A stretch of DNA of 64,000 nucleotides. Origin: Hyaloraphidium curvatum (lineage: Eukaryota; Monoblepharomycota; Hyaloraphidiomycetes; Hyaloraphidiales; Hyaloraphidiaceae). This document shows, in pieces, positions 1,335 through 34,790 of the stretch (position 1 is the first letter of the stretch; every line of letters starts with the position of its first letter). Location of the stretch: NCBI GenBank assembly GCA_025558095.1, contig JAIVFI010000031.1, positions 186,001 through 250,000 on the forward strand, in the 5' to 3' direction. Both the position numbers and the translations under genes were made by a program. The notes under the pieces are model-generated. The model saw nothing but the letters and a program-made list of their open reading frames with translations, had not been told where the DNA came from and did not search any database.

Positions 1335-4300
1335 TCAGTACGGCACCGAACACCGCTCGATGCCCCATATCCGGCTCGCGTATTCCTGTATGGATCGGTC
1401 GGAGGAAAACTTGCCCATACTGCGGATGGGTCAGCCTTCTGCGGCGCGCCGGCGATGCGGACTGCGCACCTGAAAGCGGCGGTGATGACCTTGCGCGCCC
1501 AGCCCTCGCGATCGCGGAAGGCGGCGTCGACGATTGCCTGCGTGTTGATGTACGAGTCAAAGTCGGCGTTGACGATGTAGTAGTCGCCGCCGTTGGTGAT
1601 GGTGGCTGAACACGGCGGATCAGGGGAGCTGTTCTGCGCGCGCCCGTCCGGCTCACCGATGAGGGGTTCGAAGGTGTTGGGTTCGCCAAAGGTGCCGTGC
1701 TCTATGAGGTCGACGACGACCCGCAGCTTGGGGTCCATGTCCATACGTCTATATCTGCGGGCGCAACTCCGCCTCAGGTCTGCAAAGCCCCGCGCAAAGC
1801 GAAGGACCCACCGGTTGCCGTGCCGCACATCCTCCACCTGGTCGGCCTTCTTGCCAAAGAAAAAGATGTTCTCCTCGCCCACTTCCTCGCCGATCTCGAT
1901 GTTGGCGCCGTCGATGGTGCCCAGGATCAGGCCGCCGTTGAGCACAAACTGTGGCGAACGTCGGTGTAGGGCGCAGGAGATTGGACCGACCGACGTACCT
2001 TCATGTTGGAGGTGCCGCTGGCCTCCGTGCCGGCGGTCGAAATGTGCTGCGAGATGTCGCTTGCCGGGATGATGATCTCCGCGAGGGAAACGTTGTAGTT
2101 GGGGATGAAGACGACCTTGAGCACGTCCCGCACGTCCTCGTCGTTGTTGACCACTTCAGCCACCGAGTTGATCAGCTTGATGACGAGCTTCGCGACGTAG
2201 TAGCCGGGCGCGCTCTTGCCGGAAAAGATGCAGGCGTGCGGCACCTCGGACCTGCGGTCCTCTTTGGACATGGACTTGAGGCGGCTGGCGCAACGTGTGA
2301 GCGTGGCATCGGCATGCACGGTCCGGGTCCACGAACTGGTATCGATATATCACCCCCAGGATGTTCATGAACTGCCGCTTGTACTCCTGGAACCGCTTGA
2401 CGTGGCAGTCGAACAGGAACTCCGGGGGTACGTGGACGCCGCACTGGTTCCTGACATACTCCGAGAGCCGCACCTGTAAGTGGATCTGTTGAGCTCCAAA
2501 CCCGCACTGCAGGACGGCAAAGTCCACCTTGTTCGCGTGCTTCACCGCCATGAAGCGATCCCTGAAATCGGCATCGTTGGCCAACTGCTTCAGCTCGCCC
2601 AACATGGACATGTCTTTGAGAAAGGCCCTGGTACCAAGTCTCTCGGCCACGAGGTCCACAAGGTTGGGGTTGCATTGGTGCAACCATCGGCGGGGCGTGA
2701 CGCCGTTTGTCACGTTGGTAAACTTTTGCAGCCCGTAGAAGTCGACGAAATCCTTGAAGATCTACGGTGGCGGGCTTAGCGCAACGGATGGTGTCGACGC
2801 TTTGGAACATACCACGTTCCGCAGCAAGCTTGAATGTAATGCTGCCACTCCGTTCACCGCATGCGAACCAACGATCGCCAAGTACGACATCCGCACGAAT
2901 TGGGGATGCCCCTGTACGAGATGGAGTTGAGCCACGAGCGGTTTTGCTTGCTCCGCAAACACTCGCCTCCTCGATGATGGACATTCGACGCAAGCGATCC
3001 CGATCATGGGGAAACATCTTCTCCACTCGTTGCAAAAAGAACTGCCGATTTATGGTTGTCAATGTGACTCCCATGCCCCAGACCCTCGTGACCAACCAGA
3101 TTGACGTCAAAGATAATCATCATATGTCGAGGGAGGAGCTCCGCCATGAGCGGAACCGCCCATTTCTCCATCGCCTCCGGCAAAACTGTGTGGTTGGTAA
3201 AGGAGAACGTCCTTGTCCTGCGATCGGTGGATCAGCATCAAGTTGCCCGACGACCTCGGCTTCGCTACTCACACAATATCCCATGCCTCGTCCCATTGAA
3301 TCCCCTCCTCATCGACCAAGATGCGTTGCAACTCGACAACGCCGAGGGTTGGGTGGGTATCTGCCATCGGACGGCCGTGAGCGACTGATGCCCGGCCACT
3401 CTCGAGAGCTCAACCATTCAGTTGAATGGAGACCTGGTTCGGAAAGTCGGCCCATGGTCGCGTGGTTTTCTTGAAACGGCGGATTATGTCTAGGAACCGA
3501 AGTCAGTGAACCAGCTCGCCGCCACCGTATGACCTTACCGGATAGGGTGGCGGAGACGAAGAAGTACTGCTGCTTGAGGCGAAGGATTTTGCCAACCATG
3601 TGGTTGTCGTTGGGATACAGCACTGGAAAACGGTCAGCTCGTTTCTTCGCCGGGCGCACCACGCGCACCAGAGGAGACGTTCTCGGCCGCCTTTTGCTCC
3701 TCCACGGCTTTCTCGTAGTTGCCCTCGTTGAAGGAATGGAAATCGAATTCCTGCGAGGCGATCTCGGTGAAAACCGCTCCAAAAGGGCAGAGATACGCGC
3801 TCGAACCTTCTTGGGCTTGGAGCTCCAGAGACGTATGTTGATGCAGTTCTTTGTGTCGTAGCCGGGTATCGGAACGTCGTACGCGACCGCAATAATCTTT
3901 TCGCCCCCTTCCCAGGTGTACCGAGCCTCTTTGTCGTCCGCGTCTTGCTGATCCTCTATGATCTTACTGACGTAACCCCGAAACCGCACTTCGTACGTGA
4001 CCTGCGACGGCGTTAGAGCTGTTGGCAGACCCAAACTTCGAAGGAGACATGCCCACATCCAATCGCTCTATCTCCCTGTGACAAAGGCGGGTGAGCACGA
4101 CACATATAGCAATCGTCAGAGCGGGCCTTACCAAGGATTACCGAAGTTTAGCCAGTAGTCAGGAAACTGTGTACGTCATCAGCACCCCGGCCACGTCGTG
4201 GACGCGATGTGAGCTCGCCTCCGTTTGATACCCGTCGACGATACGCTGCTGGAAGATCCCGTACGTGTACCGGATTCCGTAGCCCCAAGCGGCGTACTCC

Positions 4301-4989
4301 ATGGTGGCCAACGAGTCCATGAAACACGCGGCCAGCCGTCCAAGACCACCGTTCCCCAACGCCGCGTCCACCTCCTCCTCAAGAAGGTCCTCGATCCGGA
4401 ACCCGAGTTGCTTCAGGGCGTCCCGGTAAACGGGCTTAACGTCCAGGTTCAGCAGGGCATTGTCCAGAGAGCGCCCCAAAAGGAACTCCAGTGAGAGGTA
4501 ATAGACCCGCTTCGGGTCCATTTTGGTGTGGTGCTGCTGAGTAATGTTCCATTTGTCAATGAGACGGTCCCGCAGCCCGTAAGCCAGTGACTGGTAGGCG
4601 GCAAACTGTGGACCCCGTGTCAGCCCCGGAACCCCAAAGGGGCAGCTTGTAGCAAACAGACATTATCCAGGTTAGGAGCTGTCCGCGCCAGAGTCTTCGT
4701 AACATGGCGGCAGAAGTTCCGCTGAATAGCCTCGATGTCTGGGGCCGACCAGCATAAGGGGACGCGTCCAACGCGTCGAACCCGCCCTACCAGAGCTCTC
4801 TGGAGCCGTGAACTTCTGCCAGATGGGCAGCGACTGGAGCAGCACGCGTTATCGGCCCGCCAAAGCCAACGATCAGCATAAAGGTCCCCGTGCTCTCGCA
4901 ACGCAACACACTTCCGGCGGGGGCAACCATGACGGGACCCGCGCACTCGGTGACGGCCCGTTCACGTTGCGCTTTGTCGGCGACGGCAT
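1335..4989 (-). CDS. GPH1: Glycogen phosphorylase
   Basis: Releases glucose-1-phosphate from glycogen; cytosolic, PLP-dependent, GT35 family. Many short exons on the minus strand. Landmarks from the N-terminus: [12 protein letters not shown] then [18 protein letters not shown] (about 4500), [20 protein letters not shown] (about 4330), [14 protein letters not shown] (about 2680), and the PLP lysine in [11 protein letters not shown] (about 2010), which splices to the [17 protein letters not shown] stretch. The last exon reads [20 protein letters not shown] and stops at 1335-1337. The proposed start is ATG 4989-4987: exon 4912-4989, then 4791-4833 ([14 protein letters not shown]), joined in phase to DIEAIQRNF. 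These first two introns are inferred. It shares a 144-bp divergent promoter with CTU1. Confidence 0.93.
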
Positions 4990-17246: not shown

Positions 17247-17548
17247 TGAAACTCCAATCCAGCCACATCCACCCTGCCCCACCCCGCCCGCCGCTCGCGC
17301 ACTCTCTGGGTCGCAAGCGGCGGGGAAGCAGTGTCCGGGGACGTCGTGCTTTAGGGCTCTGGCCTTCTAGCGCGGCGCCGGCGTGGTGTGCGGACTGCGG
17401 AACCGGGGACGCGCTGACGGGACCGGCTGCCCTAACCGGTTCCCCAAGCGTGGCAGGCAACGTCGCGCGGGCGTCTGAGGAGCTCATTGTCCTCTGGAAG
17501 CTCGCGCGCGCTGCCCTGCGGGGCGGCTATGCTCTTCCCCAAGGGGCA

Positions 17549-18215
17549 ACGCGTCTGTTTGGGCTCAAGCAACGTCGCGTGCCAAGAACGCGACGAGGCC
17601 CACCCTACCGCGTGCCTCACGTGCGCCGCTCAAGAAGTGCAACTACAGCCGCGTGGCTCTCTGGCTCTGGGCGCGGATATACCGGCACTTCGACGGGCAG
17701 TGTGCGGCAAACACGAGGTCGCGTCGCTCCCCGGACGCGGCCGCAAACATTCCAGCGGCCAAACGCGTGCGCTTTCTGGTGCGGAAGGACGCGAATGGAG
17801 CAAGCAGCTGCGTGGCTCAGTGGCCCTAAGCGAAGCTGACTGCCCGCGGACGTGCCTCATGAGGAGGGGTCGGCGACCCACAAACAACGGCACTCCGGGG
17901 ATTCCGGTCTCCGGACACGTATCCAGACGCGTGCGTCCTCTTGTGCGAGGGGGCGCGGACAGGTGCAGATTGCTACGCGGCTCACTGGCTCTGTGCGTGG
18001 CCATTTGCCACTGGTGTTCCTGTGCGGCGCCGGTGACGTGTGGTGACAACATCGAGGGGACTCTGGTCTCCAAATTAGCACCCTGACGCGTGCGCTTCTT
18101 CAGTGGGGGCCGCAAATGGGATCATAAATCTGCAGCGCGCTTCGGCGCAATCTGCCGTGGGTCCAGCTGGGGGGCAAGCGGCACCAAACAACCCGTGACG
18201 CGTATTGTCGCGTTG
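17549..18215. repeat. Degenerate ~160-bp tandem repeat region
   Basis: Units share ordered motifs: GCGTGGCTCWSTGGC at 17651, 17810 and (diverged) 17975, and ACGCGTGCG at 17763, 17928 and 18085. That is a period of 157-165 bp, with weaker copies on either side. A 199-codon frame (17487-18086) stays open across three units and encodes a Cys-rich repeat around LRGSVAL, but no start, splice or family match supports a gene. The flanks 17247-17548 and 18216-18464 show nothing recognisable beyond GC-rich sequence and an AACC-rich patch near 18240-18350. Confidence 0.55.
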
Positions 18216-18464
18216 CACAAACACACAACTGCCCTATTGAGGGGCGAACCAAACCAAACTCTTCGGCTTGGGACCTAGATGAAGCTGCACGTTGGACATG
18301 CACCTGCTAGATGGGAAGGTCCCAACCCCAAACCGAAACCAAACTGCTCTTTACCTCTGGAAGGTTTTTCACCTTCGTGGGAAGGTTTTCATGCCAGCAA
18401 ACACACCGGGGACTGTGAACATCCTGTAGGCACATTGGAAAGCGGAGGCAGATAGGTCACCCTA

Positions 18465-18550
18465 GCTAAACTGATGGTGTAATAGCGGCCAAGCCAAGGG
18501 CAGGTCCGGGTCACCAATACCATTCCATTCCATTCCATTCCTGAGAACCT
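18465..18550 (+). mobile_element. LINE 3' end with ATTCC tail
   Basis: Plus-strand copy of the LINE 3' UTR (CTGATGGTGTAATAGCGGCCAAG through GGTCCGGGTCACCAATACC), followed by about five CATTC/ATTCC units at 18517-18541. The copy is nearly completely 5'-truncated. It is directly followed by endonuclease sequence of another LINE on the opposite strand, the site into which the copia composite inserted. Confidence 0.75.
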
Positions 18551-18555
18551 CGACC
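18551..18555. repeat. Left target-site duplication of the copia composite (CGACC)
   Basis: CGACC directly precedes the left LTR (TGTTGCTGG). The same five bases directly follow the right LTR at 31439-31443. Rejoining the flanks gives AACCTCGACCACATCT, which aligns with LINE sequence AACCTCGTCCACATCT near 35880. Confidence 0.85.
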
Positions 18556-18771
18556 TGTTGCTGGCGATGGATGGATGTGTTTGGAGCCGTTGGATCGAGT
18601 TGGAGTTGGCCTTGGAGTTGGATGTTGGACTTGGATGGATGGGTGGATCTTGGCTAGACAATAACCTAGGAGGGCGGCTCTAAGAAAAGGGAGAATAACA
18701 CAACAAACACCAGGAACGCCACCTGCTTCATCCGCACCTGTCTCTGGGCGCCTGTGACCAAGGGTCTTTGA
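18556..18771 (+). repeat. Left LTR of copia copy A
   Basis: 216 bp, from TGTTGCTGGCG to GGGTCTTTGA; same ends and length as the LTRs at 22593 (inverted), 25053 and 31223. The 3' end is GA, not the usual CA, but is fixed by the CGACC duplication that follows the right LTR. Confidence 0.9.
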
Positions 18772-18793
18772 GATTAAGAGTCTCACCTGCTCT
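18772..18793 (+). promoter_or_regulatory. Primer-binding site of copia copy A (tRNA-Lys(CUU)-like)
   Basis: Sequence directly after the LTR, GATTAAGAGTCTCACCTGCTCT. With the last LTR bases it is the reverse complement of TGAGACTCTTAATCTCA, the anticodon stem-loop of many eukaryotic tRNA-Lys(CUU); AGAGCA upstream would be the 3' side of the D-stem. This implies priming by the 5' half of tRNA-Lys cut in the anticodon region, as Drosophila copia uses a 5' fragment of initiator tRNA-Met. The identical site in copy B is 25269-25290. Confidence 0.6.
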
Positions 18794-18833
18794 GACACGT
18801 ACCTGCTACCCCTGGAAGCCCGCCCGCGACAGG

Positions 18834-20138
18834 ATGACAGCCAATGATGCCGACAAGCCCATCCTGCTCAACACCGGTGATAACATGGTCCAGTGGGACC
18901 GCAAGGCCCCCATCTACCTCAACAAGCTCGGGGTGTACGAGTACGTCGTCAACAACGTCCTCAGCCTCGACTGGCAGCTCGAGCAGGCTCGCAAGCGGGC
19001 CGCTGAGCGCGGCAACGCTCCAGGGCTGACCGACCGGCAGAGGGATGCCATCCTTATCGAGGAAGAGAAGGCCGCGCACGCGACCCTCACGGAACACAAG
19101 TTCAGGACGACGGCCGAAAAGGCCTACGGCGAGCTCATGTTGATGCTCGACGACGTCCTCCAGGAAGCATTCGACGAGCCCAAGACGGCCTACGACCTCT
19201 GGATCGCGATTCACAAGAAGTTCAAGGTTGGAAAGGCGCGCCTGGTACACGCGTCCCAGGTCCGCGTAAACAAGTGGCAGTGGGACGCTTCAAAGACTGT
19301 GGACCAGAACTTCAACGAGCTGCTCAGCATCAAGTCAGAGAGGGCTGCGCACAAGAAACCGCTCTCAGACTACGACGTGGCCCTGATGGTGACATTCACC
19401 GAAGGTTTTCCGTTCGCGGAGCTCCAAGGATTCTGGGGCCGAATCATTGACGAGGACGGACACTTCGACCAAGATGGCAAGAGCGAGAGTATAACGTTCT
19501 CGTTCAATGGCATGCGGGATGCGGCTAACACGGCCCAAGGAAACAAGAAACCGGATGCACCTGTCAAGATGACAGTCCCGGCGACGCTCCCGCCCCCTGC
19601 TGGATTTGGCCCCGGTTTCGCTGCCTATCAGCCGCACCAACAAGTTCCCCGTGGTGGTGGCAACCCCAGTCGGCCTCCGCAGCGCCCCTGTAACGAGCAC
19701 GGTCGCTACGCTCCGTACCCCAGCTACAGGCCGAGCGGCATGGCTCCTATCCAAGGCCAGGGCCATGATCCTCGGATGCGCGGCCGCGGGTTGGCACGTG
19801 GCGGAGGCCGCGGCTACTACCCCGCACCGAGGCCGATGGGCGGCCCAAGCTACCGCCCGGCTGGCGCTGCCGTTTGGAGGCCGGCTCCGGTGACCAGTGA
19901 GATCACCTGCCGCGAATGCGGCAAGCCGGGACACGTGGCATCGGCGTGCCCCGACAAGAAGTGCCACAATTGCAACGGCAAGGGGCACGTACAGCGCGAG
20001 TGCCCGTCACCGCCCCAGCAGCCGTACGCCATGCTGGCAGATGCCCAGATGGAACACAGCGAGGGTGAGAATCGGGGGGGGATCCTGGGCCGAGGTGCCC
20101 GCACCGCGAAGGGGCTGCGGTGCTCGGCGCTTGGTTGA
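18834..20138 (+). CDS. Copia copy A Gag polyprotein (intact)
   Basis: 434 residues from ATG 18834 (MTANDADKPILLNTG). The N-terminal half is a typical UBN2/copia-gag fold (NMVQWDRKAPIYLNKLGVYE, TAYDLWIAIHKKFK, VALMVTFTEGFPFAEL). A Pro/Gly/Arg-rich linker follows, then two CCHC zinc knuckles (CRECGKPGHVASAC and CHNCNGKGHVQREC). Gag forms the virus-like particle and binds the element RNA. The frame is uninterrupted, unlike copy B's. The stop at about 20138 is followed by about 760 nt of non-pol sequence before the pol ATG. Confidence 0.9.
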   Translation: MTANDADKPILLNTGDNMVQWDRKAPIYLNKLGVYEYVVNNVLSLDWQLEQARKRAAERGNAPGLTDRQRDAILIEEEKAAHATLTEHKFRTTAEKAYGELMLMLDDVLQEAFDEPKTAYDLWIAIHKKFKVGKARLVHASQVRVNKWQWDASKTVDQNFNELLSIKSERAAHKKPLSDYDVALMVTFTEGFPFAELQGFWGRIIDEDGHFDQDGKSESITFSFNGMRDAANTAQGNKKPDAPVKMTVPATLPPPAGFGPGFAAYQPHQQVPRGGGNPSRPPQRPCNEHGRYAPYPSYRPSGMAPIQGQGHDPRMRGRGLARGGGRGYYPAPRPMGGPSYRPAGAAVWRPAPVTSEITCRECGKPGHVASACPDKKCHNCNGKGHVQRECPSPPQQPYAMLADAQMEHSEGENRGGILGRGARTAKGLRCSALG

Positions 20139-20144
20139 AAAGGA

Positions 20145-20300
20145 GGGCCGCGGGCTCCGCGTCGCGAAGGGCCGAGGGCCAGACGCTTGAAGAAGAGGGC
20201 CGCGGGCTCTGCGTCACGAAGGGCCGAGGGCCAGACGCTTGAAGAAGAGGGCCGCGGGCCCCGCGTCGCGAAGGGCCGAGGGCCAGACGCTTGAAGAAGA
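20145..20300 (+). repeat. 52-bp minisatellite between gag and pol (copy A)
   Basis: Three units of exactly 52 bp (starts 20145, 20197, 20249) of GGGCCGCGGGCTCCGCG...GACGCTTGAAGAAGA, then degenerate GC-rich units to about 20430. The array is repeated in copy B at 26247-26402. It separates gag from pol, and frames reading through it are artefacts of the repeat. Confidence 0.85.
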
Positions 20301-20715
20301 GCGCCGCGAAGGGGCCGCGGGCCCGGCGTGTGGAGTGTGGGCCGCGGGCCCGGCGTCGCGAAGGGGCCCGTGTGCCCAGTGCCTGAGGCCGCGGTTGCCT
20401 GCCAGGAGGGGCCGCGGGCCCAGCGCTAGGTGTGGAGTTTGAGTGCGAGAAGTGACGGGACGCTGGGCACATCACCAGCCGCCGACGCGGGGGACCAGCG
20501 TCGGTGGCTGGTCGCGCACGAAACCTCGCACCCTCGTCCCATTTGATGCTGATCATCTTTCTCATCTTTCTCCTCCTTTCTCCTCTCGCCCATACTTGGT
20601 GCCATGCCTGCTCTTCCCTCCGATGCCGTTTCTTTTTGTTCATCCGGTAAGATGGCAGTGCCGCGAACGAAGGTAACTCACCCGCCCCGCACCCCGATCG
20701 CTCTTCATCGCAGCA

Positions 20716-20872
20716 TTGCCTGACAGCCTTTGGCTTCCTGGGATACGGCTCGATGCATGGTGACAGTGAGGGAGCCGATTTTGGCTATGTCGGCTACGAC
20801 CAAGAGTCCGGCGGCGGAGTGACTTACGGCGACGCCTTCGGAGCGACCTACGGCGACGGCTTCGACAACTGA
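20716..20872 (+). other. Short in-frame leader ORF separated from pol by one TGA
   Basis: An open frame, with ATG at 20751, encodes a Gly/Tyr/Asp-rich peptide (GYVGYDQESGGGVTYGDAFG) ending DGFDN at TGA 20870-20872. Nine codons later, in the same frame, is the pol ATG (20900). The arrangement is identical in copy B (TGA 26972-26974). It could be a leader, a spliced exon (CTGACAG lies at its left end) or a readthrough site; none is established. Confidence 0.4.
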
Positions 20873-20899
20873 CTACGTAGCGGCGGGGAGGCCGCTGCG

Positions 20900-22592
20900 A
20901 TGCCGACCGTGACGGCCAACGCCGTTTCGGGGGAGGACATCGACGGCGGCATGGTACAAGCTCAACACGCTCGCGCGTACATCAACCATATTCGAGCCAA
21001 CAACTGTGATTCCTTCTTCGATTCTGGCGCGAGCCGCAACTCTACCAATACCCTAAGCGACCTGACCAAACTCTACTCGATACCCAAGTTCGTTGTGCAT
21101 GGACTTACGGGGCCCGTGGAGGTGTCACAGGCTGGCACCATGTACGTGCGTTTTCGCACGAGCGGACCCGTTGTTCGGCTTGACAACGTTCTTTTCATGC
21201 CGAGCACACCGTGCCGCCTGTTTTCGGAAACGGCATTGGCCGCCGCCGGCGTTCGATCCAGGAACTGCTACCTGGCTGACAAGGAGATGCAGAAACAGCT
21301 ATACCTCGTGGACGGCACGGAGCTGTGCGTTCTTCCTCAGCAAAACGGCGTATTCCCGATGCCGATCGAGGTCGTCAAACCGGGGTCAACGTCGCAGGCC
21401 ATGTGGGGACTCACCGACGCAGATTTGATCCGACTGCGAGGGGTACGCATGTCACGCCTCTACGATCGCCACCTGTGGCATGCCCGATGTGCGCACGCTC
21501 ACATTGAGCGCATCCGGATAGCGCAGAGGTCGGGTGCGGTGCTTGGCCTTGAGAACGTCGATCTGGGCCCCGAGTCGGAGGTTATCGAGTGCGATGTCTG
21601 CCTGCACGCGAAGCTGACGACCGCGCCGTTCCGCCCCTCGATGCGTGAGCACGTCAAGGACGTCATGGATCTCTGGCACGTTGATCTCAAGGGCCCGGTC
21701 GATATCACTTCCGTGCACGGCGACCGCTACTGGATGGACGTCAAGGACGAGTGGTCGCAGCAGCTTTGGTCGATCCCCCTGAAGACCAAGGACGAAGCAG
21801 CACCTCTCCTTCAACACCTCATCGTGTGGGCCGAGACGCAGACTGGGAAACGCCTCAAGCACCTCCAGTCTGACCAGGGTACCGAGCTCGGGCGGTGGAA
21901 CGCGCGGGAGCTGGGCTGGTTCCAGACCTGGTTACGTGAACGAGGCACTCACTTCCGGGTCTCCATACCCAATACGCCTCAACAGAACGCGGTACCCGAA
22001 CGCGAGCATCGTTCCCAGGTCGAGGGGGTACTTGCGCTCTGCATCCAGGCTGACGTCGAGAAGCGTTTCTGGAACTATGCCCTCGCATACAAGACTGAGG
22101 TCCGCAACATGCTCCCAACGGTGAAGACGATGCAACGGGGCGCAAACGGAACGGTTACCACGCCGCATGAGCTATGGACAGGGACTAAACCCGACCTGTC
22201 ACGCCTCCGCACGTTCGGGTCGGAGTGCTGGTACGGTATCCTCCCCAGCCAGCGCAAGGCTCTGGACGACCGTGCACACCGTGCGATCTTCCTCGGTTTC
22301 CCGAAGCACCTGAAGGCGTACACCTTGCTGGATCTCACCACAGGCAAGATCGTCCATGCACGATCAGTGGTCTTCAACGAGCGCTATTCTAAACGTTCGC
22401 CCGGCTCCTTCCGCGACATTGATGCGCTGGGCAAGCATCGCCCTTTTGCTCTCGTACCTCCCCGCCTTCCTCATCGGCTCTCAAAGCCGGCGGATGCGGC
22501 AGTCGACGAAGACAGCGATGACGATCAGCGGACACCACCAAGGGATGCGGGGACGGGACTTCAGGAACCTGCTCAGCGCAATGAGGCAGGAG
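20900..22592 (+). pseudogene. Copia copy A pol, 5' part, cut by an inverted LTR
   Basis: Reads protease (FFDSGASRNS), the integrase HHCC finger (LWHARCAHAHIERI, CDVCLHAK) and the integrase core (WHVDLKGPV, HLQSDQGTELG, VPEREHR). It stops at AGGAG 22588-22592, where the inverted LTR begins; the frame then runs to a spurious stop at 22636. The missing half is the inverted block 22809-25052. Confidence 0.92.
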
Positions 22593-22808
22593 TCAAAGAC
22601 CCCTGGTCACAGGCGCCCAGAGACAGGTGCGGATGAAGCAGGTGGCGTTCCTGGTGTTTGTTGTGTTATTCTCCCTTTTCTTAGAGCCGCCCTCCTAGGT
22701 TATTGTCTAGCCAAGATCCACCCATCCATCCAAGTCCAACATCCAACTCCAAGGCCAACTCCAACTCGATCCAACGGCTCCAAACACATCCATCCATCGC
22801 CAGCAACA
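22593..22808 (-). repeat. Inverted LTR inside copy A
   Basis: Complete 216-bp LTR on the minus strand (TCAAAGACC...CGCCAGCAACA as read on plus). Left neighbour is AGGAG of pol; right neighbour is the inverted polypurine tract. With the LTR at 25053 it flanks the inverted 3' half of copy A. Confidence 0.93.
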
Positions 22809-23071
22809 CTCCCCCATTTGGAGGCGAGTGGATCGAGTGGAGTCCCCCACCGCATGCTCCTCCACGCCCCGGGATTGAGCTCCTTGGGCTGCCTAGGCCA
22901 GGCTCCCTGATGACACCTCCCCCCAAGACCGGGCGATCCAATCGCCGTACAAAAAGCTCCCCCAGAGACCATACATGCAAAGAAAGTACAAGAAACAATA
23001 CAATCCAGAGGTACACGTAGGGGAGACTCCCCCAGAAGCCAAGGAACGTCTGCCCGCTAGCCTCAGGCTCA

Positions 23072-25047
23072 TCACGGGCAGAGATTCCCGGCAGGGTCCG
23101 GCTCGCAGAGAACGCTGGCCTCAGCCGAACCCGTATCAAGGTCAACAACACCAATGCGCGCACGGAAAAGTTCAAAAAGGGCCGGAGCTAGAGGCTTGGT
23201 AAAGCCGTCCCCAAGGTTGTCGTCTGACACCACCCGTGCAGTCTCAATCGTTCCATTTTGCACAGTGTCGCAAACCAGGTGGTACTTGATATCGATGTGC
23301 TTCGTCCGCTCGTGAAACTTAGGATCACGAGCGAGTTGTTCAGCAGACATGTTGTCCTCGAAAAGTCGCGTAGGTGTCGTCCACGCAAAGCCAAGTTCCT
23401 GCAGGATGGAGCGCAGCCAGAGAATGTTGCGAACTGCATGCGCCATAGCAACATACTCGGCTTCCGTAGTAGACTGTGCAACGATGGATTGCCGCTTGGT
23501 CAGCCAAGCAATACTGGAAGCACCCATGAGGATGACGAGACCCGTGGTCGACTTGCGGGTCATCACACAGCCAGCAAAATCGGCATCTGCATAAGCACAG
23601 AGATCCAAGCAATCGCCAGACGCAGGACGACGGCCAAGAACAAGTCCATAGGTACGGGTGCGGCGGAGGTAGCGTAAGACATCTCGAAGCACCTTGATGT
23701 GAAGAGGTCCGAAGCTGTTGGCAAAGCGAGAAAGAAAGATCACGGCAAAGGCAATATCTGGCCGTGTCGTGATGGCGATCCAAAGTAGAGATCCAACCAG
23801 GCCCTTGTAGTTGAAACTTTTGACGTCGTCTTGGATCTTCGTCGGCAGGCTGTCAAACACCGCGGGATCAAATGGGCGCAGCGTCTGGAGTGCATCCGGT
23901 CGCATCGGCGTGAGAGCAGACTTCGTCTCCTTGCTGGGAACATCACGCGTGAATCCAAACTCGCGGAGGACGCGGTCGATGTACGCCGTCTGCGACAACG
24001 AGATTGTACCGGTGCCGGTGTCGCGACGGATGTGCACGCCCAAGCAGTAAGTGACAGAGCCCAGCGAGTTGATGTTGAAATGCTGCTTGAGGCTGCCAAA
24101 CAACTCGTCAATCTCCAGTTGTGAGGTGGCAGCAACCAGCAAGTCGTCGACGTAGACAAAGATGATCATAATGCGGCCGGCCGTGAAGCGCACGTAGAGA
24201 CAGCTCTCGGAGGCCAGCTTCACGAATCCAGCCTGGCGGAGGAAATGATCAAGCATTGCAAGGAACAAGCGCATCGCTTGCCGTAATCCATAGAGACTCT
24301 TTAGCAGGCGAAGCACCGTGCGCGAGGAAGACTCCTTGAGGAACCGCCAACCCGGAGGCGGTCTGATGTAGACAGTGTAGTCCAGTGGAGCATGCAGAAA
24401 CGCCGTCTTGATGTCCCAGTGATCACAGAGGAGTCCCAGCGTGGCAACAAGAAGGAGGAAGAGGCGGAAGACAACTTGGTTAGGAACGGCAGCGAACGTA
24501 TCGTAGTACGTTTGCTCGGACTGGCGGTTTCCGTCCGCCACCAAGCGTGCCTTGAAGCGCGTAACGTTGTTGTTCTGGTCCTTCTTGACGTCGTAGACGT
24601 AGTGCGAGGGCACCACCTTGTCCTCGTCACCAGCGGGTAGTTCCGTCTCCTCGACCACACCCATCTCAAGAATAGACTTGTTCTCCTCCTGCCGCGCTTC
24701 CTCCCACTGAGCCGCATGCGGTGACCTCTGCGATTCGTTGTATGTGCGCGGAACGGTGACATCGTGCACCGACAGCAGGGTCACCGGGCTCGTGTCTGGG
24801 TCAGGGGCGCTGGCACCTGGTATGCACCACATCTCGAAGGCTGGGAAGCGGAAGGAAGGAGAGCACGTCAGCGGAGTGGCGATCATGGCGTAGGGCATGA
24901 TGAGAGGGTCTGGCAGACCATCATCAGGTCCAGCGAGGGGATGCGGCGCAGCACCCAGCTCATCGCCATCACCAGCGTCCGTTGCCTCCTGCTCCACGTC
25001 GAGCGGGTACTCAATCTCTTCCTCAAGAAGCTCCCACTCGTACGCCT
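23072..25047 (-). pseudogene. Copia copy A pol, 3' part, inverted
   Basis: Minus-strand frame carrying reverse transcriptase (FKARLVADGNRQ, HWDIKTAFLHAPLD, YVDDLLVAATSQ) and RNase H (YADADFAGC, STTEAEYVAMAHA). It ends next to CTCCT 25048-25052, the complement of the AGGAG at 22588. It is otherwise open, and nearly identical to copy B; separated from its promoter and 5' half, it cannot make Pol. Confidence 0.92.
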
Positions 25048-25052
25048 CTCCT

Positions 25053-25268
25053 TGTTGCTGGCGATGGATGGATGTGTTTGGAGCCGTTGGATCGAGTTGG
25101 AGTTGGCCTTGGAGTTGGATGTTGGACTTGGATGGATGGGTGGATCTTGGCTAGACAATAACCTAGGAGGGCGGCTCTAAGAAAAGGGAGAATAACACAA
25201 CAAACACCAGGAACGCCACCTGCTTCATCCGCACCTGTCTCTGGGCGCCTGTGACCAGGGGTCTTTGA
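25053..25268 (+). repeat. LTR shared between copies A and B (5' LTR of B)
   Basis: 216 bp with the standard ends. Preceded by CTCCT (inverted pol of A), followed by the tRNA-Lys-like primer-binding site 25269-25290 and B gag. Confidence 0.92.
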
Positions 25269-25330
25269 GATTAAGAGTCTCACCTGCTCTGACACGTACC
25301 TGCTACCCCTGGAAGCCCGCCCGCGACAGG

Positions 25331-26240
25331 ATGACAGCCAATGATGCCGACAAGCCCATCCTGCTCAACACCGGTGATAACATGGTCCAGTGGGACCGCA
25401 AGGCCCCCATCTACCTCAACAAGCTCGGGGTGTACGAGTACGTCGTCAACAACGTCCTCAGCCTCGACTGGCAGCTCGAGCAGGCTCGCAAGCGGGCCGC
25501 TGAGCGCGGCAACGCTCCAGGGCTGACCGACCGGCAGAGGGATGCCATCCTTATCGAGGAAGAGAAGGCCGCGCACGCGACCCTCACGGAACACAAGTTC
25601 AGGACGACGGCCGAAAAGGCCTACGGCGAGCTCATGTTGATGCTCGACGACGTCCTCCAGGAAGCATTCGACGAGCCCAAGACGGCCTACGACCTCTGGA
25701 TCGCGATTCACAAGAAGTTCAAGGTTGGAAAGGCGCGCCTGGTACACACGTCCCAGGTCCGCGTAAACAAGTGGCAGTGGGACGCTTCAAAGACTGTGGA
25801 CCGGAACTTCAACGAGCTGCTCAGCATCAAGTCAGAGAGGGCTGCGCACAAGAAACCGCTCTCAGACTACGACGTGGCCCTGATGGTGACATTCACCGAA
25901 GGTTTTCCGTTCGCGGAGCTCCAAGGATTCTGGGGCCGAATCATTGACGAGCTACCGCCCGGCTGGCGCTGCCGTTTGGAGGCCGGCTCCGGTGACCAGT
26001 GAGATCACCTGCCGCGAATGCGGCAAGCCGGGACACGTGGCATCGGCGTGCCCCGACAAGAAGTGCCACAATTGCAACGGCAAGGGGCACGTACAGCGCG
26101 AGTGCCCGTCACCGCCCCAGCAGCCGTACGCCATGCTGGCAGATGCCCAGATGGAACACAGCGAGGGTGAGAATCGGGGGGGGATCCTGGGCCGAGGTGC
26201 CCGCACCGCGAAGGGGCTGCGGTGCTCGGCGCTTGGTTGA
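25331..26240 (+). pseudogene. Copia copy B gag, broken by a 395-bp deletion
   Basis: Matches copy A gag up to IIDE (about 25950), then lacks the sequence equivalent to A 19455-19849. The deletion removes the Pro/Gly linker and shifts the frame, so translation ends at 26002 after about 17 foreign residues. The two CCHC knuckles persist downstream in another frame (25944-26240). The 395-bp size agrees exactly with the change in A-to-B coordinate offset (6497 at the LTR, 6102 at pol). Confidence 0.93.
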
Positions 26241-26246
26241 AAAGGA

Positions 26247-26402
26247 GGGCCGCGGGCTCCGCGTCGCGAAGGGCCGAGGGCCAGACGCTTGAAGAAGAGG
26301 GCCGCGGGCTCTGCGTCACGAAGGGCCGAGGGCCAGACGCTTGAAGAAGAGGGCCGCGGGCCCCGCGTCGCGAAGGGCCGAGGGCCAGACGCTTGAAGAA
26401 GA
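26247..26402 (+). repeat. 52-bp minisatellite between gag and pol (copy B)
   Basis: Same array and unit count as in copy A at 20145-20300. Confidence 0.85.
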
Positions 26403-27001
26403 GCGCCGCGAAGGGGCCGCGGGCCCGGCGTGTGGAGTGTGGGCCGCGGGCCCGGCGTCGCGAAGGGGCCCGTGTGCCCAGTGCCTGAGGCCGCGGTTGC
26501 CTGCCAGGAGGGGCCGCGGGCCCAGCGCTAGGTGTGGAGTTTGAGTGCGAGAAGTGACGGGACGCTGGGCACATCACCAGCCGCCGACGCGGGGGACCAG
26601 CGTCGGTGGCTGGTCGCGCACGAAACCTCGCACCCTCGTCCCATTTGATGCTGATCATCTTTCTCATCTTTCTCCTCCTTTCTCCTCTCGCCCATACTTG
26701 GTGCCATGCCTGCTCTTCCCTCCGATGCCGTTTCTTTTTGTTCATCCGGTAAGATGGCAGTGCCGCGAACGAAGGTAACTCACCCGCCCCGCACCCCGAT
26801 CGCTCTTCATCGCAGCATTGCCTGACAGCCTTTGGCTTCCTGGGATACGGCTCGATGCATGGTGACAGTGAGGGAGCCGATTTTGGCTATGTCGGCTACG
26901 ACCAAGAGTCCGGCGGCGGAGTGACTTACGGCGACGCCTTCGGAGCGACCTACGGCGACGGCTTCGACAACTGACTACGTAGCGGCGGGGAGGCCGCTGC
27001 G

Positions 27002-30000
27002 ATGCCGACCGTGACGGCCAACGCCGTTTCGGGGGAGGACATCGACGGCGGCATGGTACAAGCTCAACACGCTCGCGCATACATCAACCATATTCGAGCC
27101 AACAACTGTGATTCCTTCTTCGATTCTGGCGCGAGCCGCAACTCTACCAATACCCTAAGCGACCTGACCAAAGTCTACTCGATACCCAAGTTCGTTGTGC
27201 ATGGACTTACGGGGCCCGTGGAGGTGTCACAGGCTGGCACCATGTACGTGCGTTTTCGCACGAGCGGACCCGTTGTTCGGCTTGACAACGTTCTTTTCAT
27301 GCCGAGCACACCGCGCCACCTGTTTTCGGAAACGGCATTGGCCGCCGCCGGCGTTCGATCCAGGAACTGCTACCTGGCTGACAAGGAGATGCAGAAACAG
27401 CTATACCTCGTGGACGGCACGGAGCTGTGCGTTCTTCCTCAGCAAAACGGCGTATTCCCGATGCCGATCGAGGTCGTCAAACCGGGGTCAACGTCGCAGG
27501 CCATGTGGGGACTCACCGACGCGGATTTGATCCGACTGCGAGGGGTACGCATGTCACGCCTCTACGATCGCCACCTGTGGCATGCCCGATGTGCGCACGC
27601 TCACATTGAGCGCATCCGGATAGCGCAGAGGTCGGGTGCGGTGCTTGGCCTTGAGAACGTCGATCTGGGCCCCGAGTCGGAGGTTATCGAGTGCGATGTC
27701 TGCCTGCGCGCGAAGCTGACGACCGCGCCGTTCCGCCCCTCGATGCGTGAGCACGTCAAGGACGTCATGGATCTCTGGCACGTTGATCTCAAGGGCCCGG
27801 TCGATATCACTTCCGTGCACGGCGACCGCTACTGGATGGACGTCAAGGACGAGTGGTCGCAGCAGCTTTGGTCGATCCCCCTGAAGACCAAGGACGAAGC
27901 AGCACCTCTCCTTCAACACCTCATCGTGTGGGCCGAGACGCAGACTGGGAAACGCCTCAAGCACCTCCAGTCTGACCAGGGTACCGAGCTCGGGCGGTGG
28001 AACGCGCGGGAGCTGGGCTGGTTCCAGACCTGGTTACGTGAACGAGGCACTCACTTCCGGGTCTCCATACCCAATACGCCTCAACAGAACGCGGTACCCG
28101 AACGCGAGCATCGTTCCCAGGTCGAGGGGGTACTTGCGCTCTGCATCCAGGCTGACGTCGAGAAGCGTTTCTGGAACTATGCCCTCGCATACAAGACTGA
28201 GGTCCGCAACATGCTCCCAACGGTGAAGACGATGCAACGGGGCGCAAACGGAACGGTTACCACGCCGCATGAGCTATGGACAGGGACTAAACCCGACCTG
28301 TCACGCCTCCGCACGTTCGGGTCGGAGTGCTGGTACGGTATCCTCCCCAGCCAGCGCAAGGCTCTGGACGACCGTGCACACCGTGCGATCTTCCTCGGTT
28401 TCCCGAAGCACCTGAAGGCGTACACCTTGCTGGATCTAACCACAGGCAAGATCGTCCATGCGCGATCAGTGGTCTTCAACGAGCGCTATTCTAAACGTTC
28501 GCCCGGCTCCTTCCGCGACATTGATGCGCTGGGCAAGCATCGCCCTTTTGCTCTCGTACCTCCCCGCCTTCCTCATCGGCTCTCAAAGCCGGCGGATGCG
28601 GCAGTCGACGAAGACAGCGATGACGATCAGCGGACACCACCAAGGGATGCGGGGACGGGACTTCAGGAACCTGCTCAACGCAATGAGGCAGGAGAGGCGT
28701 ACGAGTGGGAGCTTCTTGAGGAAGAGATTGAGTACCCGCTCGACGTGGAGCAGGAGGCAACGGACGCTGGTGATGGCGATGAGCTGGGTGCTGCGCCGCA
28801 TCCCCTCGCTGGACCTGATGATGGTCTGCCAGACCCTCTCATCATGCCCTACGCCATGATCGCCACTCCGCTGACGTGCTCTCCTTCCTTCCGCTTCCCA
28901 GCCTTCGAGATGTGGCGCATACCAGGTGCCAGCGCCCCTGACCCAGACACGAGCCCGGTGACCCTGCTGTCGGTGCACGATGTCACCGTTCCGCGCACAT
29001 ACAACGAATCGCAGAGGTCACCGCATGCGGCTCAGTGGGAGGAAGCGCGGCAGGAGGAGAACAAGTCGATTCTTGAGATGGGTGTGGTCGAGGAGACGGA
29101 ACTACCCGCTGGTGACGAGGACAAGGTGGTGCCCTCGCACTACGTCTACGACGTCAAGAAGGACCAGAACAACAACGTTACGCGCTTCAAGGCACGCTTG
29201 GTGGCGGACGGAAACCGCCAGTCCGAGCAAACGTACTACGATACGTTCGCTGCCGTTCCTAACCAAGTTGTCTTCCGCCTCTTCCTCCTTCTTGTTGCCA
29301 CGCTGGGACTCCTCTGTGATCACTGGGACATCAAGACGGCGTTTCTGCATGCTCCACTGGACTACACTGTCTACATCAGACCGCCTCCGGGTTGGCGGTT
29401 CCTCAAGGAGTCTTCCTCGCGCACGGTGCTTCGCCTGCTAAAGAGTCTCTATGGATTACGGCAAGCGATGCGCTTGTTCCTTGCAATGCTTGATCATTTC
29501 CTCCGCCAGGCTGGATTCGTGAAGCTGGCCTCCGAGAGCTGTCTCTACGTGCGCTTCACGGCCGGCCGCATTATGATCATCTTTGTCTACGTCGACGACT
29601 TGCTGGTTGCTGCCACCTCACAACTGGAGATTGACGAGTTGTTTGGCAGCCTCAAGCAGCATTTCAACATCAACTCGCTGGGCTCTGTCACTTACTGCTT
29701 GGGCGTGCACATCCGTCGCGACACCGGCACCGGTACAATCTCGTTGTCGCAGACGGCGTACATCGACCGCGTCCTCCGCGAGTTTGGATTCACGCGTGAT
29801 GTTCCCAGCAAGGAGACGAAGTCTGCTCTCACGCCGATGCGACCGGATGCACTCCAGACGCTGCGCCCATTTGATCCCGCGGTGTTTGACAGCCTGCCGA
29901 CGAAGATCCAAGACGACGTCAAAAGTTTCAACTACAAGGGCCTGGTTGGATCTCTACTTTGGATCGCCATCACGACACGGCCAGATATTGCCTTTGCCGT

Positions 30001-30670
30001 GATCTTTCTTTCTCGCTTTGCCAACAGCTTCGGACCTCTTCACATCAAGGTGCTTCGAGATGTCTTACGCTACCTCCGCCGCACCCGTACCTATGGACTT
30101 GTTCTTGGCCGTCGTCCTGCGTCTGGCGATTGCTTGGATCTCTGTGCTTATGCAGATGCCGATTTTGCTGGCTGTGTGATGACCCGCAAGTCGACCACGG
30201 GTCTCGTCATCCTCATGGGTGCTTCCAGTATTGCTTGGCTGACCAAGCGGCAATCCATCGTTGCACAGTCTACTACGGAAGCCGAGTATGTTGCTATGGC
30301 GCATGCAGTTCGCAACATTCTCTGGCTGCGCTCCATCCTGCAGGAACTTGGCTTTGCGTGGACGACACCTACGCGACTTTTCGAGGACAACATGTCTGCT
30401 GAACAACTCGCTCGTGATCCTAAGTTTCACGAGCGGACGAAGCACATCGATATCAAGTACCACCTGGTTTGCGACACTGTGCAAAATGGAACGATTGAGA
30501 CTGCACGGGTGGTGTCAGACGACAACCTTGGGGACGGCTTTACCAAGCCTCTAGCTCCGGCCCTTTTTGAACTTTTCCGTGCGCGCATTGGTGTTGTTGA
30601 CCTTGATACGGGTTCGGCTGAGGCCAGCGTTCTCTGCGAGCCGGACCCTGCCGGGAATCTCTGCCCGTGA
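27002..30670 (+). CDS. Copia copy B Pol polyprotein (intact, 1222 residues)
   Basis: One uninterrupted frame. In order: aspartic protease (FFDSGASRNS, residues about 39-48); integrase zinc-binding HHCC (LWHARCAHAHIERI, CDVCLRAK); integrase core with D-D-E in WHVDLKGP, LQSDQGTE and VPEREHR; reverse transcriptase with KTAFLHAPLD and catalytic YVDD; RNase H with YADADFAG and TTEAEYVAM, ending in an acidic tail. The E in VPEREHR replaces the more usual VAERMNR context. All catalytic residues are present, so this copy could supply Pol activity in trans; its own gag is broken. Confidence 0.96.
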   Translation: MPTVTANAVSGEDIDGGMVQAQHARAYINHIRANNCDSFFDSGASRNSTNTLSDLTKVYSIPKFVVHGLTGPVEVSQAGTMYVRFRTSGPVVRLDNVLFMPSTPRHLFSETALAAAGVRSRNCYLADKEMQKQLYLVDGTELCVLPQQNGVFPMPIEVVKPGSTSQAMWGLTDADLIRLRGVRMSRLYDRHLWHARCAHAHIERIRIAQRSGAVLGLENVDLGPESEVIECDVCLRAKLTTAPFRPSMREHVKDVMDLWHVDLKGPVDITSVHGDRYWMDVKDEWSQQLWSIPLKTKDEAAPLLQHLIVWAETQTGKRLKHLQSDQGTELGRWNARELGWFQTWLRERGTHFRVSIPNTPQQNAVPEREHRSQVEGVLALCIQADVEKRFWNYALAYKTEVRNMLPTVKTMQRGANGTVTTPHELWTGTKPDLSRLRTFGSECWYGILPSQRKALDDRAHRAIFLGFPKHLKAYTLLDLTTGKIVHARSVVFNERYSKRSPGSFRDIDALGKHRPFALVPPRLPHRLSKPADAAVDEDSDDDQRTPPRDAGTGLQEPAQRNEAGEAYEWELLEEEIEYPLDVEQEATDAGDGDELGAAPHPLAGPDDGLPDPLIMPYAMIATPLTCSPSFRFPAFEMWRIPGASAPDPDTSPVTLLSVHDVTVPRTYNESQRSPHAAQWEEARQEENKSILEMGVVEETELPAGDEDKVVPSHYVYDVKKDQNNNVTRFKARLVADGNRQSEQTYYDTFAAVPNQVVFRLFLLLVATLGLLCDHWDIKTAFLHAPLDYTVYIRPPPGWRFLKESSSRTVLRLLKSLYGLRQAMRLFLAMLDHFLRQAGFVKLASESCLYVRFTAGRIMIIFVYVDDLLVAATSQLEIDELFGSLKQHFNINSLGSVTYCLGVHIRRDTGTGTISLSQTAYIDRVLREFGFTRDVPSKETKSALTPMRPDALQTLRPFDPAVFDSLPTKIQDDVKSFNYKGLVGSLLWIAITTRPDIAFAVIFLSRFANSFGPLHIKVLRDVLRYLRRTRTYGLVLGRRPASGDCLDLCAYADADFAGCVMTRKSTTGLVILMGASSIAWLTKRQSIVAQSTTEAEYVAMAHAVRNILWLRSILQELGFAWTTPTRLFEDNMSAEQLARDPKFHERTKHIDIKYHLVCDTVQNGTIETARVVSDDNLGDGFTKPLAPALFELFRARIGVVDLDTGSAEASVLCEPDPAGNLCP

Positions 30671-30840
30671 TGAGCCTGAGGCTAGCGGGCAGCCGTTCCT
30701 TGGCTTCTGGGGGAGTCACCCCTACGTGTACCTCTGGATTGTATTGTTTCTTGTACTTTCTTTGCATGTATGGTCTCTGGGGGAGCTTTTTTGTACGGCG
30801 ATTGGATCGCCCGGTCTTGGGGGGAGGTGTCATCAGGGAG

Positions 30841-31272
30841 CCTGGCCTAGGCAGCCCAAGGAGCTCAATCCCGGGGCGTGGAGGAGCATGCGGTGGGGGA
30901 CTCCACTCGATCCACTCGCCTCCAAATGGGGGAGTGTTGCTGGCGATGGATGGATGTGTTTGGAGCCGTTGGATCGAGTTGGAGCCTGGCCTAGGCAGCC
31001 CAAGGAGCTCAATCCCGGGGCGTGGAGGAGCATGCGGTGGGGGACTCCACTCGATCCACTCGCCTCCAAATGGGGGAGTGTTGCTGGCGATGGATGGATG
31101 TGTTTGGAGCCGTTGGATCGAGTTGGAGCCTGGCCTAGGCAGCCCAAGGAGCTCAATCCCGGGGCGTGGAGGAGCATGCGGTGGGGGACTCCACTCGATC
31201 CACTCGCCTCCAAATGGGGGAGTGTTGCTGGCGATGGATGGATGTGTTTGGAGCCGTTGGATCGAGTTGGAG
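30841..31272 (+). repeat. Triplicated 144-bp unit spanning polypurine tract and LTR start
   Basis: Three units of 144 bp (30841, 30985, 31129). Each contains CCTGGCCTAGGCAGCCC, the polypurine tract AAATGGGGGAG and the first ~50 bp of the LTR (TGTTGCTGG to GATCGAGTTGGAG). Only the third unit continues into the full 216-bp LTR. Copy A has a single unit. Junctions share GGAG, suggesting slippage during plus-strand synthesis or unequal exchange. Confidence 0.92.
31212..31222 (+). promoter_or_regulatory. Polypurine tract for plus-strand priming
   Basis: AAATGGGGGAG directly before the right LTR; the same tract precedes the LTR in copy A (inverted, about 22809-22819) and occurs in each 144-bp unit. 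Confidence 0.8.
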
Positions 31273-31438
31273 TTGGCCTTGGAGTTGGATGTTGGACTTG
31301 GATGAATGGGTGGATCTTGGCTAGACAATAACCTAGGAGGGCGGCTCTAAGAAAAGGGAGAATAACACAACAAACACCAGGAACGCCACCTGCTTCATCC
31401 GCACCTGTCTCTGGGCGCCTGTGACCAAGGGTCTTTGA
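31223..31438 (+). repeat. Right LTR of the copia composite
   Basis: 216 bp, TGTTGCTGG to TCTTTGA, followed by CGACC (31439-31443). Differs from the other LTRs by isolated substitutions (for example GATGAATGG for GATGGATGG). Confidence 0.92.
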
Positions 31439-31443
31439 CGACC
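31439..31443. repeat. Right target-site duplication of the copia composite (CGACC)
   Basis: Matches 18551-18555. Confidence 0.85.
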
Positions 31444-34297: not shown

Positions 34298-34549
34298 AGG
34301 TGAGAGTAAAGCTAGATGGAAGGGCCTGACTATGATCGGATGTGAACCTTTACAGAACCCAACGAAGGCCGGACAATGAGCTGCATAGAGATGTGTCAGA
34401 CATTGTGAGAGTCCTGGGAGCCCTTGAAATGAGAGGTGCACGAAGAATCATCGGAGAAAGAGATGAGAAGAGACCATGCATGGGAGCACCAGATGGTCCG
34501 ACCGCGCGAGAACTCGGCGAGGAGCACGAGAGAGAAAGAGAAAGATGTC
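34298..34549. other. Unassigned interior of the second copia-like element
   Basis: No long frame; a purine-rich run leads into the minisatellite. This is where pol would be expected, and it is absent. Confidence 0.5.
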
Positions 34550-34790
34550 CTGCACGGGAGAACCGGCAGAGCAGAGAAAGGAGATGGCCTGCACGGGAGC
34601 ACCGGCAGAGCGAAGGAAGAGAGATGGCCTGCACGGGAGCACCGGCAGAGCAGAGGAAGAGAGATCACCTGCACGGGAGCACCGGCAGAGCAGAGAAGGA
34701 GAGATCGCCTGCACGGGAGCACCAGCAGAGCAGAGAACGAGAAAAGGCCCGCACAGGAGCACCGGCGGAGTGAGAAAGAAAGACCATGCG
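34550..34790 (+). repeat. 39-40-bp purine-rich minisatellite, six units
   Basis: Units beginning CTGCACGGGAGCACCGGCAGAGCAGAG at 34550, 34589, 34629, 34669 and 34709, with a degenerate one at about 34748. Internal repeats keep frames open on both strands, so ORFs here are not genes. Confidence 0.9.

Follow-up and report, generated by a model that had tools for sequence, protein, structure and literature searches.

Autointegration, in which a retroelement integrates into itself, is generally regarded as ‘suicide’—a dead end—and has been studied mainly in the form of extrachromosomal circles. Shoemaker et al. (1980) reportedly cloned a circular form of Moloney MLV DNA in which one segment was inverted, a structure that led to the inference of self-integration; Garfinkel et al. 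(2006) are said to have described Ty1 autointegration circles, and Weinstock et al. (1990) and Sharon et al. (1994) are said to have reported multimeric Ty arrays formed by recombination of cDNA. When integrase inserts both ends of a cDNA into internal sequence of that same molecule, the outcome is either two deletion circles or one circle with an inverted segment (PMC4751563; PMC3952818). A scheme of the inversion product exists for Ty1 (PMC4751563, citing Shoemaker 1980 and Garfinkel 2006), and this product has been described, with target duplications at both joints, for transposon autointegration (PMC3952818); it has also been proposed that genomic LTRs can capture Ty circles (PMC4751563). 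In Magnaporthe oryzae, autointegration is reported to be the main source of MAGGY, MGRL3 and GYMAG1 circles, with Copia1 circles coming mostly from LTR recombination and in a small fraction from autointegration (PMC9694575).

Here we describe a 12.9-kb array from Hyaloraphidium curvatum that, on balance, is probably the chromosomal fossil of an inversion circle formed by autointegration, which a resident element then took up by homologous recombination between LTRs. The closest counterpart is the ‘2-LTR inverted Ty circle’ of Ty1 (Moller et al., PMC4751563), with which the locus shares its Ty1/copia class, the joining of LTR ends to the element's own interior and an inverted segment between opposite LTRs; the Ty1 products, however, are extrachromosomal circles, whereas ours is chromosomal and lies beside a second copy, and no PPT-like run resembling the central polypurine tract of Ty1 is found near its AGGAG target. 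The Moloney MLV circle has the same inversion layout but is retroviral, and a cloned circle rather than a chromosomal copy. Multimeric Ty arrays likewise hold LTR-sharing elements within one pair of target duplications; they differ in being direct repeats with no inverted half. The Magnaporthe oryzae elements are fungal LTR elements, as ours is, and their circles are attributed mainly to autointegration, but those circles were seen as split reads and not as a chromosomal insertion (PMC9694575). We found no published chromosomal case of an inversion circle in the open-licence literature, which is not proof of absence. The mechanism of autointegration is already known from the laboratory; its preservation in a chromosome is seldom seen, and hence is the unusual part here.

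Organization of the array

The window, the whole 64,000-nucleotide stretch analysed, corresponds to positions 186001-250000 of contig C31, in an assembly of 31.9 Mb and 55 contigs. The source is probably a fungus, to judge from 74 Fungal_trans matches, where 14 control genomes gave none; no chlorophyll-binding proteins were found. Between CGACC duplications (18551-31443), the order of parts is LTR(+)–A5'–AGGAG–LTR(−)–[A3' inverted]–CTCCT–LTR(+)–B–LTR(+), where A and B are two copies of one element (Table 1). These were compared piece by piece with each other and with the copies at C37 and C24, the inverted half of A being left in its assembled order.

Table 1. Coordinates of features within the window
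Feature	Position	Strand	Remarks
Outer target site duplication CGACC, left	18551-18555		Empty site in LINE paralogues
LTR1	18556-18771	+	216 bp, TG...GA; position 206 = A, a state that recurs in the young copies only in LTR3
Primer binding site GATTAAGAGTCTCACC	18772-18787	+	15 nt complementary to spliced tRNA-Lys(CUU) anticodon region
gag of copy A	18798-20135	+	Retrotran_gag_2 below curated cut-off; CCHC zinc knuckles
pol 5' part of copy A (Pol_BBD, integrase core, SH3-like)	20873-22592	+	Ends at AGGAG
Inner target duplication AGGAG	22588-22592	+	Adjoins 3' end of LTRinv
Inverted LTR (LTRinv)	22593-22808	-	216 bp; position 206 = G
Copy A 3' half, inverted (reverse transcriptase, RNase H, 3' untranslated part, one PPT unit)	22809-25052	-	
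CTCCT, inverted partner of AGGAG	25048-25052	-	Adjoins 5' end of LTRmid
Middle LTR (LTRmid), common to A and B	25053-25268	+	216 bp; position 206 = G
Copy B internal region	25269-31222	+	pol as one ORF, 26975-30670; single AGGAG at 28690-28694
144-bp unit (PPT-region sequence and first 50 bp of LTR), three copies	30837-31272	+	
LTR3	31223-31438	+	216 bp; position 206 = A, position 83 = A
Outer target site duplication CGACC, right	31439-31443		

Judged from the position of integrase ahead of RVT_2 in pol, the array (18551-31443) is of the Ty1/copia type. Pfam places an integrase core (rve, 266-369, below the curated cut-off), an SH3-like domain (436-505) and RVT_2 (715-942; E 4.8e-48) in that order; the gag is copia-type, with Retrotran_gag_2 at 24.9 bits where the cut-off is 27. 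The LTRs of the young copies end in TG...GA and not TG...CA, but the latter termini, whilst usual, are not universal in Ty1/copia, and as domain order is what sets the superfamily the assignment is left unchanged. MAGGY we take not to be a copia element.

More than 15 substitutions and several indels, scattered over their full length, separate copies A and B. An ORF at 23072-25150 (-) corresponds to the inverted 3' half of A, and the gag of B has lost 395 bp at ~25949/25950, with 2 bases in common at the joint. The 144-bp unit, present three times in B, occurs twice at C37 and once each in A and at C24; it amounts to a duplication of the plus-strand priming site with a variable copy number. 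Tandem repeats of 52 bp occur in both copies around where the gag frame ends (20083-20360 in A, 26185-26462 in B).

Outer insertion into a LINE

The right flank of the array consists of LINE sequence, and intact copies of this LINE at C21, C24, C35 and C4 have the sequence CCTGAGAACCTCGACCACATCTCG, in which CGACC occurs once; that is, they retain the empty site. With only one CGACC in the uninterrupted LINE, the 12.9 kb is a single unit bounded by integrase action, at least as far as its ends go, in agreement with the first-pass annotation, which had seen the CGACC duplication as bounding the whole. That annotation had gone on to treat A and B as one insertion, a reading that stands for the outer unit; an end-to-end concatemer of A and B is not the simplest account of it, as the LTR polymorphism described below points to a different origin for the middle LTR.

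Some 10-15 bp to the left of the unit, the same LINE carries another insertion (17248-18542), which ends in an ATTCC repeat and has CCTGA at both sides. To the right, the window also contains a 40-bp tandem repeat array (34536-34775).

Inner junctions and the inverted block

At the inner junctions, the earlier reading of AGGAG against the 3' end of LTRinv and of CTCCT against the 5' end of LTRmid holds base for base, as does that of a single AGGAG at the same pol position in the unrearranged copy B. Taking X as the 5' part of A and Y as its inverted 3' part, the two half-sites overlap by exactly 5 bases, the match stopping there both on the X side (TCAAAG vs AGGCGT) and upstream of Y; five bases is also the length of the duplications made by this family elsewhere (CTTAG at C35; GTTCT, GAATC and GAATA in older copies). 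The inverted block, from 22951 to 25052, is 100% (rounded) complementary to positions 28690-30791 of B. Both LTR ends abut internal sequence of the same element, with the LTRs in inverted orientation—the arrangement of an autointegration inversion product—and the junctions support the claim of an integrase-made 5-bp duplication inside A together with an inversion relative to B. The extent of that inversion had been given as 22593-25268; we see it for 22593-25052, whilst for the middle LTR, a possible crossover partner, no inversion is seen.

The origin of the block can be followed through sublineage SNPs that are common to A and B, are found in both X and Y, and are absent from C37 and C24; each of the two copies additionally carries private changes. 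Since these markers lie within the inverted block, it does not derive from the C37 or C24 lineage, and another genomic copy is rejected as its source; a closer match to another copy than to A, named in the first-pass annotation as refuting its reading, is not seen.

Misjoins classically arise at near-identical repeats and between inverted LTRs, here 2.2 kb apart, such that an assembler could in principle have made the inversion across the inverted LTRs, the true order being collinear or A and B being collapsed copies. We regard this as very unlikely: a misjoin alone gives no second AGGAG on the mirrored junction at exact LTR ends, a true order flipped back to collinear still requires an internal 5-bp duplication, and the repeats to be spanned are just 216 bp in copies that differ as A and B do. 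Less probable still, to the point of being barely credible, is template switching during reverse transcription, or repair, with no part for integrase at the inner site; the family does contain switch-like deletions (that in the gag of B, and one at C35 that joins element positions ~1643 to 4784 with ~6 bases in common at the joint), but exact LTR ends flanking a mirrored 5-bp duplication of the family length are not expected from such events.

LTR polymorphism within the array

The four LTRs differ by 0-2 bases, with LTRinv and LTRmid identical (0/216 differences). Position 206 is G in these two, as in every young LTR at C24, C35 and C37, and A only in the outer pair; G206 is the family state and A206 is derived. 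A newly made cDNA has two identical LTRs, and this difference therefore assigns the outer pair to one cDNA and the inner pair to another: on the strength of one SNP, LTR1 and LTR3 appear to belong together, with LTRmid of different origin. The same pattern, A206 in the outer LTRs vs G206 in the middle one, disfavours two linear cDNAs simply joined end to end.

Young and older copies elsewhere in the genome

The young family occupies four loci in the ~32-Mb genome, those outside the window being at C37, C24 and C35 on other contigs (LTR identity of at least 99%). Assembly-wide, ten LTRs are at least 99% identical; all are at these four loci, each with internal sequence, and none of the ten is solo.

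The copies at C37 and C24 lack a 5-bp duplication and both look rearranged. The full-length copy at C37:317537-324172 has unlike flanks (GATCG / CTCCT), between which 173 bp of the host LINE are missing; this represents either an insertion with target deletion or recombination between insertions in two LINE copies. At C24:477542-484032 the flanks are again unlike (GTACA / CCCGG), and part of the 3' flank recurs ~390 bp or more upstream of the 5' LTR. That two of the four young loci are without normal duplications fits frequent recombination of family DNA.

Two further loci were considered as relics of self-integration. The 3.3-kb copy at C35:152892-156236 might have come from a deletion circle, but its CTTAG duplications are intact and normal, and it is a plain internal deletion. 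At C11, the second LTR of a double LTR is divergent (81%) and partial, such that a nested older element is the likelier explanation. No second autointegration scar was found in the family.

Proposed origin of the array

The sequence shows the junctions, the two duplications, the SNPs of the LTRs and of the sublineage, and the empty site in the LINE; from these we infer a circular intermediate and an order of steps as follows. Integrase would have joined both ends of a linear cDNA of the form LTR-X-AGGAG-Y-LTR to the AGGAG within the pol of that cDNA, at points 5 bases from one another and in an orientation that inverts one side; the resulting circle, LTR(+)-X-AGGAG-LTR(-)-Y(-)-CTCCT, has the order seen from 18556 to 25052. 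Element B, a relative with CGACC duplications and A206 LTRs, would then have taken up the circle by one homologous crossover, before or after B itself entered the chromosome. Placing the crossover in or just after the 5' LTR of B, 3' of position 206, would reproduce the SNP pattern, the end product being LTR-A(inverted half)-LTR-B-LTR. One integrase reaction and one crossover would account for both the tandem and the inversion, and so a third element is not needed. Autointegration requires the inner LTRs to be identical at birth, as is consistent with their 0/216 differences, although nearly all young LTRs have G206 and the evidence is accordingly weak; similarly, the sublineage markers agree in X and Y of A, as expected of a single cDNA, in a family too uniform for proof.

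The first-pass annotation had proposed a different history, in which a tandem LTR-A-LTR-B-LTR received a family insertion in inverse orientation at AGGAG in A, this was reduced to a solo LTR, and recombination with the middle LTR then inverted the intervening segment. As this predicts exactly the same junction bases, the choice rests on other grounds. Clean solo LTRs (C35:74427, with GAATA on each side) and nested LTRs (the divergent one at C11) do occur among older copies, a counterpoint to autointegration, and any of the near-identical young LTRs could have been the donor. Against this, beyond tandem formation the scheme calls for three further events—a third element would have to insert into A and then shrink to a solo LTR, and an inversion between LTRs would have to follow—within a period in which the LTRs remained 99-100% identical, as well as a chance hit, in the correct orientation, on a 6.5-kb target in a 32-Mb genome; nor does the assembly offer a young solo LTR elsewhere. 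Whilst we would call this history unlikely and do not uphold it as the best one, we consider it quite probable that autointegration with circle capture, which needs fewer events, is the better account of the locus.

If autointegration with circle capture is indeed what took place, products of self-integration can survive, feed back into genomes and reshape them. The signature—an inverted LTR, a mirrored target duplication and a shared LTR—is one that can be searched for in assemblies, and carries a warning for annotation in that an autointegration scar can pass for a nested solo LTR plus an inversion.

Primer binding site

The primer binding site, found in B at 25269-25284 as well as in A, contains a 15-nt match to tRNA-Lys(CUU), a tRNA whose gene has an intron, and the match runs across the point of splicing. 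This tRNA was read by eye in two gene copies at C26:486997-487516, an interval in which ARAGORN called no tRNA gene; the uninterrupted 12-mer AGACTCTTAATC was found at element sites only. The match suggests that reverse transcription may be primed by the spliced tRNA at its anticodon arm, to which the half-tRNA primer of Drosophila copia is comparable.
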